Source of the DNA: Planktothricoides raciborskii GIHE-MW2
GTDB taxonomy: Bacteria > Cyanobacteriota > Cyanobacteriia > Cyanobacteriales > Laspinemataceae
Direction: 5' to 3'
NCBI RefSeq assembly: GCF_040564635.1
Contig: NZ_CP159837.1
Coordinates: forward strand, 5,133,001-5,197,000
Length of the DNA: 64,000 bases
The position numbers and the translations under genes are program-made. Below are positions 5,571 through 13,702 of this stretch, in pieces (positions within the stretch are counted from its first letter, which is position 1; each line of letters starts with the position of its first letter). The notes below the pieces were generated by a model. That model did no database searches and was not told the origin of the DNA. It saw only the letters and a program-made list of their open reading frames with translations.

Positions 5571-6389
5571 TTAATTTTGAAAATGAATTCGGGCATCAAG
5601 GCCAAACTTTTGTAAATAACCACTTTCTTGTTCGGCGGTGGTGCGATCGCGAAAAGGCCCGATCGCAATATGAGGGCCAAACGGTTCTTCTCTGGTGAAA
5701 ATTTCTGCACCAGAAATTCCCGCATCCACGGCGGTTTGGATCATCCTGGGTAAATCTTGGCGGTTGCCCGGAACGATCAGAAAGTACGCTCTGGCTAGTT
5801 GGCTGCCCCCACCGGGAGGGGGTGCCGGAAGGATGGAGAGTGAAGTCCCAATCGGGGGCATAGCCTGAGAATTATTCACCGGAGGAAGATTATAGCCAGA
5901 AGCTAGGGGAGGGTTACTCCAAGCTGGGGTGACATTGGTTGCCGGTTGCGGTTGCTCAATGGAGGCGATCGCGGCTCGAATGCCGCCTAATTCTAATTCT
6001 CTGGCCAATCGTTGAGCATTATTGCGATTAGCAAAAACCCCGATCTGAATCACCGTTCGTCCTTTGTACTGACTCAAAAATGCCTCTGGTTCATATAACC
6101 GGACTTGGGCAAGGGTCCGGGGATTTTGTCCGGGAATATAGACCAAATAGCGTTTACTGTCCAAATTCCGCGAATTATCCCGAAAATCTGGGTTAGTAAA
6201 ATTCGGATTAACTTGAAAACTCCGGTCTTGTGGCAAAACCACCGATGGCAAAGCATAAGGATCGGGAGGCATTCCTTGATTGCCAAAAGGCAACGGGGGT
6301 AAAGGTTCCCCTTGAGCAATTTTTCCCCCTGCGGTTGAGAGTTGAAGGGCGATCGCCCCAATTAGCAGATAAATTTTTTTCATGTTCAT
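5571..6389 (-). CDS. Secreted SPOR-like domain protein
   Basis: 272 residues with an N-terminal signal-like stretch (MNMKKIYLLIGAIALQLSTA). A first SPOR-like unit (GRTVIQIGVFANRNNAQRLA, near residue 115) and a second near the C-terminus (ARAYFLIVPGNR ... FGPHIAIGPFRDR) flank a Pro-rich linker. SPOR domains bind denuded septal peptidoglycan, so a cell-wall or septum-associated role outside the membrane is likely, though this pair is divergent. Either Met1 or Met3 could be the start, the two ATGs lying six bases apart. It is upstream of nnr on the same strand, separated by repeats, so co-transcription is uncertain. Confidence 0.75.
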   Translation of the reverse strand: MNMKKIYLLIGAIALQLSTAGGKIAQGEPLPPLPFGNQGMPPDPYALPSVVLPQDRSFQVNPNFTNPDFRDNSRNLDSKRYLVYIPGQNPRTLAQVRLYEPEAFLSQYKGRTVIQIGVFANRNNAQRLARELELGGIRAAIASIEQPQPATNVTPAWSNPPLASGYNLPPVNNSQAMPPIGTSLSILPAPPPGGGSQLARAYFLIVPGNRQDLPRMIQTAVDAGISGAEIFTREEPFGPHIAIGPFRDRTTAEQESGYLQKFGLDARIHFQN

Positions 6390-6599
6390 ATCCAGTATTT
6401 CTCTATTTTTAGTTCTTAGTGGTTATTTGTTGTTGGTTGTTTGTTATTTGTTATTCCTTATTAGGTAGGATATCTATTAGAGTTTTTTGCAAGTCTTAAT
6501 ATATATAGGTTATAGGCTGTTTTTAGCCCCTTTAACGCCACCTTCATAGCCACCTGGAGTATTATCAGAGTCAGATCCACTGTTCTCTAATAAATATAT
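6390..6599. other. Intergenic, left edge of the integrated element
   Basis: AT-rich, with TTGTTGGTTG-type repeat at 6428-6455 and no tRNA-like 3' end that could serve as an attachment site. GCCACCT occurs here (near 6541 and 6552) and as a tandem GCCACCTATCCC at 13632-13662 at the far end of the element; this is too short to claim as att. Confidence 0.4.
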
Positions 6600-7883
6600 A
6601 TGATTCCCAAAATCACCCCTAAGCCCAAAAAATCTGGGTCAATATTTATCCGATTTAGACTGACTCAAAACGGTAAGCAGAAAAATTATGAAATGACTTT
6701 GCCACTTAAATGGGATGATTGACGGGACCGCCGTAAGGCTGAAAAAATTGCAGATATCATTAAACAAGATATCAAACATGATTTTGTAGGATTACAACCA
6801 CCGGCATTTGACCCAACACTGCAAAAGTATCGCCCTGGATTAAAAATTGCGGTGGCGCCAAAAATCCCATCATTGCTAGATGTTTGGATTAAGTTTGTTG
6901 ATTTCAAAACTCAGCAAGGGAAAGTCGAAGAAACAACATTGACAAAAGCTTATCCCCTTGTCACAAAAATCCTTACAAAAGTTGACCCAGAGTTACTTAA
7001 GCCTAGTAACTATAAACAACTTTTGAGTTTTTTAACCAAACGTTACAAACCAAGCACCTTGGTTTCTTACTACACAAAGATATCTGCTTGCGCTAATTGG
7101 GCCTTAAAACAAGACATCTGGGAAAAAAATCCTTATAGCCGTGATTTAGCCATTTTAAAGAGTCAGTGTGAAAATCCTGATAAATCTGGTAAGGCTTATT
7201 CTGACTCTGAAGCTACTGTAATTCTCAACGCGATCGCCACTGACCGATTGACCCCACCCCGTGCCTGGACCAAACATTCTTACTATGCTCAGTTTTTACA
7301 ATTCATGTTTCTGACCGGGGTCCGACCGCAATTAGCGATCGCTCTGGAGTGGGAACAAATTGTGTGGGAACGGGACCGGCCTATCAAGATTTACTTTGAC
7401 CGTGCCTACACATCTGGGATTCTTAAACCGAGTAAGGGCGATCGCAATGGCAAAAACACCCCACGGGTTTTTCCGGTTAACTCTGAACTCGCAGATTTAA
7501 TCATGGCAATTCCCAAAAAAGAGACGATTCACCGTGAACCAAGAATTTCCCGTCATTTAAAGACTATCGATCGCCCTCATTGCCCCGATCTGGTTTTTCC
7601 GTCACCCCGTCGTTGGTATATTGCCATTGACCACTTTACTAATCGGATATTTAAGCCGGTCGTTGAGTCACTGGTAAAACTGGGAGAAGTCAGCGAATAC
7701 CTTCCGACATACCATTCCCGTCACACTACCCAGAATCGTTGGCTAGAGTCTGGGATGTCGGAAGAAGCGATCGCCGCGTTACTCGATACATCACCGACAA
7801 GGATCCGCAAGCATTACCGAGATGACCGTCTTGATTACGAAAATTTAGCCCAAAATATCACCTTGCCAGAATTAGGGGATTAA
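6600..7883 (+). pseudogene. Tyrosine recombinase/integrase with an in-frame TGA
   Basis: From ATG 6600 the frame reads MIPKITPKPKKSGSIFIRF, an arm-binding N-terminus, and meets TGA at 6720-6722 after LPLKWDD. It then continues in the same frame (RDRRKAEKIADII) to 7883. The catalytic part after the stop is whole: an SAM-like core-binding domain, Arg I in TGVRPQLAI, box II as YHSRHTTQNRW, and the Tyr nucleophile in RKHYRDD. A GTG at 6852 could start a 343-residue form lacking the N-terminal arm domain. TGG to TGA would explain the stop. It could be a damaged integrase, a shortened one, or a readthrough case. It marks the left end of the element that runs to about 13.7 kb. Confidence 0.8.
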
Positions 7884-7916
7884 GTTTTTGCGGTGAGTTA
7901 AGTCTAGCGAGGTTGA

Positions 7917-7936
7917 GCAGGGGATTAATCCCCTGC
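7917..7936. terminator. 20-base perfect palindrome after the integrase
   Basis: GCAGGGGATTAATCCCCTGC lies 33 bases after the integrase stop. It has no T-run, so it could be a transcription attenuating hairpin or a protein site. Confidence 0.45.
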
Positions 7937-7972
7937 CAGAGATACACGCAATTTGCGGGCAAAATTACAGAG

Positions 7973-8295
7973 TTGTAATGGCACTAGGTGGCTAGATATG
8001 TGCTATGCTGTATGTGCGGAAAACATTGTATTCATTTTCTTTTAGCTTTTAGTTTAACTCTCAAAAAAACTCTGGTAGTAGGTTGACCGGCCATACCAGA
8101 GTTTTTTAGTGAGAAAAGTTGTAATGGCACTAAGTGGACTTGACGTGGCTACTTAGTGCCATTTTGGGTTATTTTGGGTTATTTTGGGTCACGATTTTGA
8201 GGAAAAAACCCGTTTTTTAGGGTTGACTAGGGCTATTTTGGGCTATTTGTGGCTTAACGTGGCTACTTAGTGCCACTTAGTGCCACTAAGTGCCA
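7973..8295. repeat. AGTGCCA/TGGCACT repeat cluster
   Basis: GTTGTAATGGCACTARGTGG occurs at 7973 and 8119, and ACGTGGCTACTTAGTGCCA at 8143 and 8258. The second is followed at once by ACTTAGTGCCACTAAGTGCCA, giving six or more 7-mer boxes in both orientations. Between them are TTTTGGGTTA triplications (8162-8190). The region is noncoding and has the look of an iteron or partition site of the element. Confidence 0.6.
8064..8107. terminator. Strong bidirectional terminator
   Basis: A perfect 14-bp stem AAAAAACTCTGGTA / TACCAGAGTTTTTT with a 16-base loop. The T-run on either strand makes it a rho-independent terminator in both directions. Confidence 0.75.
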
Positions 8296-8361
8296 TGTCA
8301 AGCCATGTTCAGAGAAATTTTTATCATCAATGCACTATGCGGATTCATTCCGGGTTATTCC

Positions 8362-8735: not shown

Positions 8736-8999
8736 TTATACCACGTCATTGTCTGGGGTCCACTGAAGTAACTCACCGGGTTGACATTCGAGGGCCGTAC
8801 ATATTTTTTGCAAGGTTTTCATTCTGATATGACTAGGCAGGTTGTTTTTTAAGTTGCTGATGGTAGCACGGTGCAACCCAGTTATTGCAGCCAAATCGTT
8901 AACCCCCATGTCTTTTTCAGCCATGACAACCGCTAGTCGCCATTTCATCGGCATATTAAGCAAGGTTCTTGACATATTCAGTGTAGCATTTAAATTCAT
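8736..8999 (-). CDS. XRE-family (Cro/CI-type) HTH regulator
   Basis: Up to 87 residues, almost all one helix-turn-helix domain: KWRLAVVMAEKDMGVNDLAA (helices 1-2), ITGLHRATISNLKNN (recognition helix), then IRMKTLQKICTALECQPGEL, the usual C-terminal half. An inner ATG at about residue 16 or 18 probably is the true start, since the DNA coding for the first residues holds one of two repeated GTAGCA boxes. It is divergent from the small-gene operon at 9137 and is likely the repressor of the element's early promoter. Confidence 0.85.
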   Translation of the reverse strand: MNLNATLNMSRTLLNMPMKWRLAVVMAEKDMGVNDLAAITGLHRATISNLKNNLPSHIRMKTLQKICTALECQPGELLQWTPDNDVV

Positions 9000-9480: not shown

Positions 9481-9828
9481 GTGTTGCCTAAATTACGCAG
9501 TGAGTCAGGTCAGCAATGGCGATTAATAGAATCGGCCAAAAAGATAGATGAGTTGAGTGACTCTGTGATTCCCTTGTATTACGTTCATTTTCGGAAAGTT
9601 TACCCACCCCGTTACCAAATGGACATCTGGGATAACCCAGAGTGTTTTCTGGTAGTTGCTGGGATAGGCAAAGAACTCTATATCTATGTCTCTCAGCGTC
9701 GTTTTGACGTGGCTGAGTTTTTGGAACAAATCAAGCAAAAGTATGCAGAGTTAATGTTTGAAATGTCATCCCGTTTCCGTTCAGTTAGGGGTGACTTTCG
9801 CGGTGAACCGAGGGTGACTCAGGGGTGA
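9481..9828 (+). CDS. Hypothetical protein of the integrated element
   Basis: 115 residues from GTG 9481, 44 bases after the previous gene. Not recognised. The sequence looks like a compact alpha/beta domain (FLVVAGIGKELYIYVSQRRF) with a helical end (DVAEFLEQIKQKYAELMFEM). The last ~12 codons run into the GGGTGA repeats (9789-9839), so the C-terminus (RGEPRVTQG) is formed by repeat DNA. Confidence 0.5.
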   Translation: MLPKLRSESGQQWRLIESAKKIDELSDSVIPLYYVHFRKVYPPRYQMDIWDNPECFLVVAGIGKELYIYVSQRRFDVAEFLEQIKQKYAELMFEMSSRFRSVRGDFRGEPRVTQG

Positions 9829-10177: not shown

Positions 10178-10393
10178 ATGATTAACGACTTGATGAATAT
10201 CAGTAACGATATAGGGGAAAAAGCAGTATATATCCCTGACGTTTTCTTACAGTTAGACCAGCAATTCAGTCAGTCAACTACCCAGACAGAATCCCTAGAA
10301 AAGCTGAGTCAAACTGTTAGTGATTCACTGGTTAACTGGAATAACTTTGCTAGTTATCCCAGTGCCAACGGTCTAAACAGAAAGGCAAGTTAA
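10178..10393 (+). CDS. Small hypothetical protein, doubtful
   Basis: 71 residues from ATG 10178, acidic and Ser/Gln-rich (LQLDQQFSQSTTQTESLEKL), with no recognised domain and no clear ribosome binding site. Reading upstream in other frames also gives peptide-like stretches, so it may be the end of a decayed gene. It stops just before the hairpin array. Confidence 0.3.
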   Translation: MINDLMNISNDIGEKAVYIPDVFLQLDQQFSQSTTQTESLEKLSQTVSDSLVNWNNFASYPSANGLNRKAS

Positions 10394-10398
10394 TCACA

Positions 10399-10915
10399 GA
10401 TAACAGATATTTGTTCGTTAACTCTATATCTGTTATTGTCAATTGCTGACTATCGCTATAATATTCAGCAATTAGCCATTGGTTACATAGCACTTTCACA
10501 ACCGACAGTCGGAAGTGTCAGTCAACCCGCAAATTTTGCGGATGTGTACGCTAACCGTACATTGTAGCTATGTGCAACTTTGCACATTTTATTCAGAAAT
10601 AAATAGCTATTTATGATTATCGGAAGTGTTAGTCAGTCCGCAAATTTTGCGGATGTGTACGCTAACCGTACATTGTAGCTATGTGCAACTTTGCACATTT
10701 TATTCAGAAATGAACAATGTCACCGTTAGATACATTTTGTAAGGCATACCTTACACTGTGACCATCGGTCACGGCAAGCTTTTGAGTCATTTTGAACCAT
10801 GTAAAGCCGTGGCTAAAATGTCACCGTTAGATACATTTTGTAAGGCATACCTTACACTGCGACCATCGGTTACATTGGGTATCTAACTAATCCAAATGAG
10901 TCATTTTGACTCATC
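10399..10915. repeat. Array of about a dozen different perfect hairpins
   Basis: In order: AACAGATAT/ATATCTGTT, AATTGCTGA/TCAGCAATT, CCGAC-A-GTCGG, CCGCAAA-T-TTTGCGG, GTACG-CTAAC-CGTAC, TGTGCAA-CT-TTGCACA, AAATAGCTATTT. A second copy of the middle three follows, then TGTAAGG-CATA-CCTTACA, GTGACC-ATC-GGTCAC, CACGGC/GCCGTG, TGTAAGG again, and ATGAGTCA/TGACTCAT. Two direct repeats underlie part of this: a 91-base unit (10510-10600 and 10621-10711) and a ~54-base unit (10716 and 10817). No gene is present. It lies just upstream of the replicase pseudogene, so an origin or a structured leader RNA is plausible. Confidence 0.7.
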
Positions 10916-11035
10916 AAAAATGACTTACTTACTATAAGATTTTCATGCTATTCTATGAAGGATAAATATTTAAAAGGGTGTGATTTTATTTCGTCTCTGG
11001 ACTTCACACACCAAGTTTAGAGACAAAAAAACCCG

Positions 11036-13626
11036 GTGTTAGAGCACCGAGTAGACCTTGATCAACCCAAACATCCTTTTTTGCATGAAACCTGTTATGG
11101 TAAGCAATTTTGGGAATGGGCGATCGCCAATAACTTGCCCGTCGTCATCACTGAAGGGGCAAAGAAAACCGCGTGTCTGCTTTGTGCTGGTTACGTTGCT
11201 ATTGGGCTACCAGGGATATGGAACTTTTCTGATACCAGTGATAGAAGTATCGCGGCATTTAAAGCACCTTTAAACCCGTGGCTGCAATCATTCTTTAGCC
11301 GGTTTCAACAACTCGAAATCACGATCGCTTTTGACGCTGATAGCAGAGTCTCAACTGCCTTAGATGTTGACAATGCCGCGTCCAGACTAGCCAATAAAAT
11401 CACTTGGCTGGTTAACAGAAAAGCAGTTGTTAAAATTGCTCAGTGGCATCCTGAGTTAGGTAAAGGTGTTGATGATATCTTTGTCCAGAATGGCATTGAA
11501 ACACTTGAGACGGTTTTAAATTCTGCCTTACCATTGCAAGTGTCTAAGTTCAGAAAGTATATAAACTTAAGCTATCCCGTCTTAGACTTTAATCGGAGAC
11601 ATTTAGATAAACTTCCTAAACTTTATGCAAAAATTGTAGCAATTAAATTCCCTAAAAACACGGGTAAAACTTGGACACTTTCCCAGATGGTCAGTGACGC
11701 CATAAAAGCAGGTCATAAAGTGATTGTGCTAGGACACAGAGTGCAATTAATGTCCCACTTATGTGACCGTTTCGGGATTCAATTTCTCAATGAGATGACC
11801 TCTAAAAAAGATTGGTTAGAGGCTTTATATTTTGGCTTAGGACTGTGTATTGATTCTTTACATCCTAATTAATTCTAAAGCTAAAATTGACCTGACGGTT
11901 GATAATTACCTTGACGGTTGTCTTTTGGTTGTTGATGAGTCTGAACAAGTTTTAAATCACTTATTACACGCTGATACTAAGTATCTTAGAAAAAAACGGG
12001 CTGAAATTATGACTCTGCTTAAGATAGTCAAAACGCTTCAAAAATTTATTTGGCTGACGCTGACTTATCTGATTTTTCCATTTAGTTTTTTAGAAAAATG
12101 GCTGAATTAGGCAAGTCAGATGTAGCGTTAATCAATCCAAAATAATTAGAAGTTTGATAAGGCTGAATTATGGATTTTTTTATTTACCAATAAAACAACC
12201 CATACAGACTGTTAGCAGAGTGTAAACCTCGCTTGTCAAAAGGTAATTGCGTATTTTTATTCTGCGTTATACAGAAGATTAAGTCCTTGTATTATGGCCA
12301 AAAAAATGCCACTATATTATCACTTTATTGTCAAATTTAAGTTTGATTAATTGACTGTAATAATGTTAATTAATTAACGTGAGTATAAAGCTTATTGTAT
12401 ATTAAGTAAACTAGGCCATTTAAGCGAATAAAAATTAGTCATTTATTTCAGTATTTTATACAGAGTGTTTAGTATTAATAATGACTTGTCTATCACGGTT
12501 TTTATGTGGTTTATAGCGTTGAATATGTTCAGTCAGTCGCTCAATTTGTGGCACGGTATCGCTGGCCCGTTGACCGGCATATCTGGCTCCCAAAATCAGG
12601 TAACGCTACATATATGAAATTTGGTGGTGCGTTATCATCGGATCAGGTTAAGCATTGCTTACAAACCAACAAAAAGAGAATGCAATCTTTTCTCAAAGAT
12701 TTTACCGCTTTAGATAATGGGTTATTTTATGCTTACTGTGAGTCTGTAGCCCTTAGCAATTTAGGGTTAAGTGCTTACCGGGAAAATTTAGAATGGTTGC
12801 TGACTTCCGACGGTCATCGGTGCCACTATGTTGACCCTGTAAAGGTGCATGATACTGAAATCAGAGAGATTAGAAATGCGGCTTATGATACTGAAGTCAG
12901 CGAGATTGATACCACTGAGAATCCCTCTGATGATGAATTAAAAACCCTTAATAATGCCGTGGCAAAAACTAAGCATCAACGGTATAAACAACGGGGAATT
13001 TAGTTAGAACTTATGGCTATTGTTCTAAGGCTTTAATCATGGCTGATGATCACGGTTGTTTCCGACCGTTACAACTGCTGTATTACCTGACCATTGGTAA
13101 AGCTTTTGCCGTGTCTCACGATGCTAAACAAGTCCAGACTTTTACCTCTAAAACTCAGTGCCTTGACCATGAAATCAGCAAGTATGCAGTCAGTCTCAGA
13201 CAAGCATACTTATCGGTGCTTTTTGACAAGGGCTTATCCCGGTTTTTGACGGGTGAAAATTTCGCCTATAACGATCCGTTCCTCACCGATACCGTTGCCA
13301 GGTTAAACCCAGATGAGTTTGTAGAGACATTTGGCTGGGGGCTCCCGGTTAAGACGGGCGATCGCATCAATGTCATTTTGGATCTCATTGGCTACCAGAA
13401 AAAATATGCGTGCCGGGTGGGAACGGGGGCCGATGCTATCCGCCACTATTGTGCCGTGCCCAAGTTTGACGGCATAGACGTGGATCAGATTTTTGATTTC
13501 TGGTTTGACCGGGATATGAAGTCTCAGGAATTTTCCGGCACCGAGGCCGGGGATTTTGCTGGAGATTTTTCCGGCACCGAGGCCGGGGCTGCCGGTCACT
13601 TTGCCGGGGATTTTGCGCGGGCATAA
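11036..13626 (+). pseudogene. Decayed CyRepA1-like plasmid replicase (DUF3854 primase-like plus helicase)
   Basis: Five pieces in order match the layout of CyRepA1-family replication proteins. 11036-11872 has a TOPRIM-like segment (ITEGAKKTACLLCAGY), then a P-loop altered to PKNTGKT and FGLGLCIDSLHPN. The frame breaks at a 4-base duplication AATT-AATT (11867-11874); removing one copy restores HPNSKAKIDLTVDN. The next piece (LLVVDESEQVLNHLL) breaks again in an A5 run near 12045, after which the other frame reads KIYLADADLSDFSI before stops. 12130-12500 is degenerate. 12506-13003 resumes (VQSVAQFVARYRWPVDRHIW), and after another shift 13039-13626 gives the C-terminus. The N-terminus is also short. 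It cannot make a full protein. Confidence 0.7.
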
Positions 13627-13631
13627 TCACC

Positions 13632-13702
13632 GCCACCTATCCCGCCACCTATCCCGCCACCTAATAAAATTAAAAGCCTTGTAACCGATGAGTTACAAGG
13701 CT
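13632..13702. terminator. GCCACCTATCCC repeat and strong hairpin at the right end of the element
   Basis: CCGCCACCTATC is repeated about three times, followed by a perfect 11-bp stem AGCCTTGTAAC / GTTACAAGGCT (13675-13702). The T-rich side is on the minus strand (TTTTAATTTTATT). It separates the element remnant from mnmA. Confidence 0.6.

Follow-up and report, generated by a model that had tools for sequence, protein, structure and literature searches.

A variable palindrome cluster in front of the CyRepA1 gene of an integrated Planktothricoides replicon, possibly part of its control region

The integrated element and the borders of the rep gap

The window analysed here is a stretch of 64,000 nucleotides (G000:C1:5133001-5197000) from the 7.2-Mb chromosome of the cyanobacterium Planktothricoides raciborskii GIHE-MW2, and it carries an integrated plasmid-like replicon whose palindrome array is flanked by a small ORF on one side and by a rep gene of the CyRepA1 (DUF3854) type on the other. 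The rep gene is a pseudogene (11036..13626, plus strand) with about 155 N-terminal residues gone and its frames broken; the small ORF upstream of the array encodes about 122 aa in a related element, and no intact ORF was called there in the window. The tyrosine integrase of the element (6852..7883, plus strand) matches the phrog_1 integrase at 1.5e-22 and Pfam Phage_integrase at 5.9e-5, the latter under the cut-off, and its 5' part outside this ORF is degraded. A Cro/CI-type HTH protein (HTH_26; PF13443, 1.9e-21) is encoded at 8736..8999 on the minus strand.

Planktothricoides sp. SR001 (G037), a genome of the same species, has two relatives of the element in which the rep gene is intact, L007 (8707-11970, 1087 aa) and L008 (4122-7427, 1101 aa). 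Taking an NCBIfam score above 200 as membership of NF042913 (CyRepA1 plasmid replication protein), these proteins belong to the family with 299.2 and 280.9 bits, respectively, while the window fragment reaches 67.5, as expected of a pseudogene. The original prediction had linked the array to a CyRepA1-like replicase, and this link holds, since the intact relatives match NF042913 and the array stands directly upstream of the putative rep promoter. In place of the HTH gene, L007 has an HTH_26 gene (6172-6450) and L008 a different 78-aa ORF (9494-9730); this small gene differs between the window, L007 and L008 as though it were also a swapped module. A second copy of the window element, L006, lies on the same chromosome. 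The comparison thus covers three genomes of the genus and four gaps (window, L006, L007 and L008); the SR001 orthologue of the window copy ends inside rep on its contig, and its array allele is absent from the comparison.

The noncoding stretch 7884-8334 of the element also folds unusually strongly (z -7.7); inside it, 8100-8310 is, beside the array, the second palindrome-rich noncoding stretch, with GGCACTTAGTGCC-type words in both orientations. Near the right end, at 13675-13702, AGCCTTGTAAC-CGATGA-GTTACAAGGCT is an inverted repeat with arms of 11 bp and a spacer of 6 bp, and in L006 this spacer is reverse-complemented relative to the element; two sites of this type occur in G000, two in SR001 and none in G184, another species of the genus. 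This inverted repeat looks like a crossover site for a tyrosine recombinase, or else like a minus-strand terminator. In G184 the element survives as degenerate remnants (L035 and L036) from which the gap and the greater part of rep are missing; L035 occupies the locus of L007, which makes this insertion an old one.

The left border of the gap consists of two stem-loops. Stem-loop 1, AACAGATAT...ATATCTGTT (10396..10439), has a left arm common to all four copies, and stem-loop 2, AATTGCTGA...TCAGCAATT (10441..10473), is destroyed in L006; both are kept in the window, L007 and L008, while L006 keeps the arms of the first only. The right border, TGCTATTCTATGARGGATAAATATTT, is extended -10-like with a core identical in 4/4 copies, and the sequence TGCTATTCT (10946..10954, plus strand), likewise identical in all four, was judged by eye to be the probable rep promoter. 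An intrinsic terminator on the minus strand (11031..11052), just upstream of rep, would end an antisense RNA; L007 and L008 also have a strong minus-strand terminator immediately before rep, and in both a promoter-like sequence matching the consensus, TTGACA-17-TAGAGT, lies inside the 5' end of rep. These signals suggest that a short antisense RNA probably spans the start codon of rep (L007 8756-8649; L008 7378-7481). In the window the terminator is kept, and the antisense promoter was lost with the deleted rep start.

The palindrome array and its background

Between 10497 and 10946 there are 11 non-overlapping perfect dyads (arm of at least 6, loop of at most 8), 8/11 of them with an arm of at least 7. 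Dinucleotide shuffles of the same DNA gave 1.16 +/- 0.99 dyads with a maximum of 4 (n=300), and the folding energy of the array DNA has a z of -8.4 against shuffles. Among 3037 background windows of 450 bp, drawn from 20 stretches of 20 kb elsewhere on the chromosome and from the remainder of the window (~460 kb), the mean was 1.28 dyads and the maximum 8, and none had 9 or more. The palindrome cluster is therefore genuine. The densest background window, with 8 dyads, consists of one tandemly repeated motif, GAAACCGGGTTTC; this tandem palindrome array (L123 ~360-790, near 3.8 Mb of the same chromosome) is the densest other hairpin region sampled.

Much of the array is built of two modules, each present in two copies with 96% identity. 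The 95-nt module lies at 10509..10603, with three perfect dyads, and again at 10620..10714, both on the plus strand; the 57-nt module (10716..10772 and 10817..10873, plus strand) begins with a degraded dyad, AATGTCACCGTTAGATACATT, followed by two perfect ones, and in its second copy the last dyad, GCGACCATCGGTTAC, has lost perfection through two arm changes. The perfect dyads are, from left to right, CCGCAAATTTTGCGG (10527..10541), TGTACGCTAACCGTACA (10545..10561 and 10656..10672), ATGTGCAACTTTGCACAT (10570..10587 and 10681..10698), ATAAATAGCTATTTAT (10599..10614), TCCGCAAATTTTGCGGA (10637..10653), TGTAAGGCATACCTTACA (10738..10755 and 10839..10856), GTGACCATCGGTCAC (10758..10772) and ATGAGTCATTTTGACTCAT (10896..10914). 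The word TGTACGCTAACCGTACA is also found in both SR001 rep gaps, and the position of ATGAGTCATTTTGACTCAT matches that of TTGATTAGTCA...TTGATTAGTCA in L007 and L008. Because the modules are duplicated, only 7/11 dyad sequences are distinct, four (CCGCAAA-, TGTACG-, TGTGCAA- and TGTAAGG-) being present twice. Dyad lengths vary over 14-19 bp and the spacing is also uneven; 5/11 dyads have loops of 0-2 nt, their symmetry running up to the centre, and the two strands of the window array fold equally well (dG difference 0.0).

The original prediction had described a dozen non-identical perfect hairpins at 10399-10915, partly duplicated as whole modules and not repeating one sequence as CRISPRs, attC arrays or iterons do. 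The array is confirmed, with 11 perfect dyads against 1.16 by shuffling, but non-identity applies to only seven of them; the module duplication is borne out; and the variable palindromes begin after ~10497, the first two stem-loops being a separate conserved pair. A CRISPR, attC or iteron array is ruled out, as there is no single repeated word: where an iteron origin has several direct copies of one word, only two-copy module repeats and seven unlike dyads occur here. Fixed-spacing CRP/NtcA sites are ruled out by the varying dyad length (15 to 19 bp).

Shared half-sites and the replaced cassette

In the corresponding gap, L007 and L008 have different palindromes, built from shared half-site words (TGTNACC, TGTACG and TGTAAGG). 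Their gaps contain 7 and 2 perfect dyads, respectively, the L008 gap including a 68-base N run, and fold with z values of -5.0 and -10.8; in L008 the plus strand folds better. The N run, in the stretch 7612-8000, lies exactly between inverted-repeat arms of more than 20 nt, and apparently assembly or sequencing failed in these palindromes. The half-site words are concentrated in the gaps of the three elements, which hold 12 of 23, 13 of 27 and 9 of 21 of them (expected 1.4, 1.9 and 1.3), with p-values that are descriptive, the words having been picked after the gaps were viewed. The half-sites also mix: TGTCACC is paired with TGTTACC and TGTAAGG with TGTAAACC, and TGTGACC belongs to the set as well.

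Within the two genomes, the dyad words tested are specific to the elements. TGTACGNTNANCGTACA has two sites in G000 and two in SR001, every one in a rep gap, and ATGTNACCGNCGGTNACAT, with at most 2 mismatches, has five sites in SR001 (counted per site), all in the L007 and L008 gaps; in the searches of the own and SR001 genomes, both occur only in rep gaps. Scattered copies of the kind that define REP, SDR or RHE repeats were looked for in the own genome with two dyad words, and none lay outside the array, so a genome-wide dispersed repeat is rejected. Outside the genus, TGTACGNTNANCGTACA is present in only 2 of the other 193 sampled genomes of the order (G096 and G130), and about 4 chance matches are expected in 193 genomes by our own estimate, so that two hits are not significant as such. 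In both genomes, from one related genus, 17-bp dyads of the TGTACGG-N3-CCGTACA type (TGTACGNTNANCGTACA and a sister dyad) flank XRE genes (L093 1158-1176 and 1500-1518; L094 1501-1517 and 1870-1886). By their placement these dyads are likely operators, and the two matches are suggestive through the shared operator-like setting.

The window element and L006 are 98.5% identical over 5267 aligned columns. Their identity is 100% at 10201-10409, similarity is lost over 10410-10950, and identity is 94-100% from 10951, so that two nearly identical copies carry unrelated cassettes at 10410..10950; the L006 gap has only 3 dyads, of other sequences. Either the cassette was replaced, or the flanks may have been homogenised by conversion. 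Both copies lack the rep N-terminus, and for this reason the event is no evidence of present function. The HTH gene is common to the two copies, yet L006 is without the window dyads, and the element's own HTH protein is thereby rejected as the sole reader of the dyads.

The array is also rejected as a general hallmark of CyRepA1. The 700 bp upstream of 20 other CyRepA1 loci of the order contain 0-5 dyads, with folding z values from +3.2 to -4.7, and because these loci have no such array, CyRepA1 replication as a rule does not depend on one. In PLSDB there is no DNA match to the array, and the CyRepA1 plasmids match at the protein level with ~30% identity; viral_contigs contains no relative of the rep protein and no exact copy of the one dyad word searched. 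No Rfam family matches the array region at the gathering score, so a known Rfam structured RNA is rejected. In the available portions of the literature, no heterogeneous dyad cluster is described in front of CyRepA1.

Possible functions of the array

Several known systems are comparable in part. Cro/CI-type operator clusters such as lambda OR/OL have, like this array, 17-bp dyads (here TGTACGG-N3-CCGTACA and TGTGACC-N3-GGTCACA) clustered near a promoter, but the seven unlike dyads are not variants of one operator. REP and SDR elements are dispersed palindromes in bacteria; they and the repetitive hairpin-forming elements (RHEs) of mitochondrial DNA resemble the array in having many short palindromes in noncoding DNA with local duplications, whereas the words tested here are limited to the rep gaps of the Planktothricoides elements. 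Single-strand hairpin assembly and priming sites are represented by ssiA/ssiB of RSF1010. It has been reported that replication of the Synechocystis 6803 plasmid pSYSA requires the ssr7036/asRNA1 locus together with slr7037 (CyRepA1), and priming was proposed in the spacer upstream of CyRepA1 (PMC9978351). As far as the available portion of that report goes, the order of small ORF, noncoding spacer and CyRepA1, with an antisense RNA in the control region, is the same; however, no palindrome array was found there, the rep proteins are only ~29% identical, and the antisense RNA of pSYSA covers the small ORF while the putative one of L007 and L008 would cover the rep start. The orf904 replicon of pRN1 cannot do without a stem-loop that is poorly conserved (PMC4234260). 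It too depends on a primase-helicase and has, between conserved flanks, a noncoding region that is structured but little conserved; it differs in having one 100-nt stem-loop downstream of rep instead of many short dyads upstream, and its primase type is unrelated.

The array may be the variable part of a cis control or origin region of the integrated CyRepA1 replicon, with dyads read as double-stranded DNA, a reading we favour tentatively and put close to, though short of, an even bet. Dyads of 14-19 bp, made largely of a few half-sites (TGTNACC, TGTACG, TGTAAGG and others) and placed upstream of the conserved putative rep promoter, would be bound by one or more sequence-specific dimeric proteins; such binders might gate rep transcription, replication initiation or both, and the reading of the dyads could help to define which replicon is which. 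What the data show directly is the cluster and where it lies, its restriction to these elements, the common half-site vocabulary and the abrupt exchange of the cassette; binding by proteins, any influence on rep or origin and any part in replicon identity are inferred. A control region is supported by the location of the array, with the small ORF on one side and on the other a promoter-like sequence that all four copies preserve, by the concentration of half-site words and the restriction of the tested dyads to the gap, by the unrelated cassettes of two nearly identical copies, by the related dyads that flank XRE genes, and by the need of pSYSA for the locus upstream of CyRepA1. Reading as double-stranded DNA is favoured over hairpins because of the central symmetry, the equal folding of the strands in the window and the mixed half-sites with mostly uncompensated changes. 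Among the three options originally proposed (a single-strand origin or primase start, a multi-stem RNA and a landing site for several proteins), the protein landing site fits best on the same grounds and the multi-stem RNA is disfavoured. Several results count against this reading: one ordinary repressor would hardly serve as many as seven different dyads, spacing and dyad length are uneven, the other CyRepA1 loci tested have no such array, L006 has the same HTH gene without the dyads, and the plus-strand bias of L008 is not predicted by a pure double-stranded reading. Since rep is dead in the window copy, the array there is a relic unless a protein of the cell still binds it.

It is rather unlikely that the palindromes extrude or fold as single-stranded hairpins on which the CyRepA1 helicase-primase would assemble or prime, as happens at the stem-loop of pRN1 or at ssiA/ssiB of RSF1010. 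In favour, CyRepA1 has Toprim-like and helicase parts (PMC10079941), all three arrays fold far more strongly than their shuffled versions (z -8.4, -5.0 and -10.8), perfect stems preserve the fold while the sequence differs, and in pRN1 a conserved, required stem-loop sits in a poorly conserved region between conserved flanks (PMC4234260). Against it, the regions upstream of other CyRepA1 genes mostly have no array; loops of 0-2 nt in 5/11 dyads extend symmetry beyond what a hairpin needs, and the window has no strand preference. Free substitution in the arms of homologous regions had been proposed as the refutation of hairpins, and the outcome is mixed, mostly against them: among the few homologous dyads most arm changes are uncompensated, with one possible double compensation, TGTAAGG/CCTTACA versus TGTAAAC/GTTTACA, for which L007 has an intermediate. 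A multi-stem regulatory RNA, in which the gap is transcribed and its hairpins might, for example, control copy number by antisense or prime replication, seems very improbable. Transcripts of pSYSA extend into the spacer that precedes CyRepA1, where they may act as primers (PMC9978351), L007 and L008 have an antisense promoter and terminator around the rep start, and two conserved stem-loops are present at 10396-10473; but the array lies upstream of the putative rep promoter and outside the antisense unit, Rfam gives no match and the window has no strand bias.

Functionless proliferation of palindromes in a tolerant noncoding gap, by local duplication, template switching or selfish hairpin-like elements, is an unlikely explanation that would account for the recent module duplications, the rapid turnover between copies, the strong folding of 7884-8334 and the persistence of the array next to a dead rep. 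A precedent is sponge mtDNA, in which RHEs multiply (PMC2800124). Against this reading, the tested words stay within the rep gap instead of being scattered over the genome, elements whose rep is intact have the same words in their gaps, and the gap borders are conserved. Beyond the favoured reading of dyads as double-stranded DNA, we consider it quite doubtful that the gap is a swappable identity cassette, by which co-resident CyRepA1 replicons of one cell would exchange or diversify the palindrome cluster together with the HTH gene and so become compatible, the code being a mixed half-site set and not one iteron word.

CyRepA1 is a Rep family widespread on cyanobacterial plasmids, whose origins and incompatibility determinants are hardly known. 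Across the two genomes there are four elements of this lineage, of which two retain an intact rep; they have conserved borders and a sharply replaced middle, and they pinpoint the 0.5-kb gap as the exact region in which origin, operator and compatibility functions may be sought.
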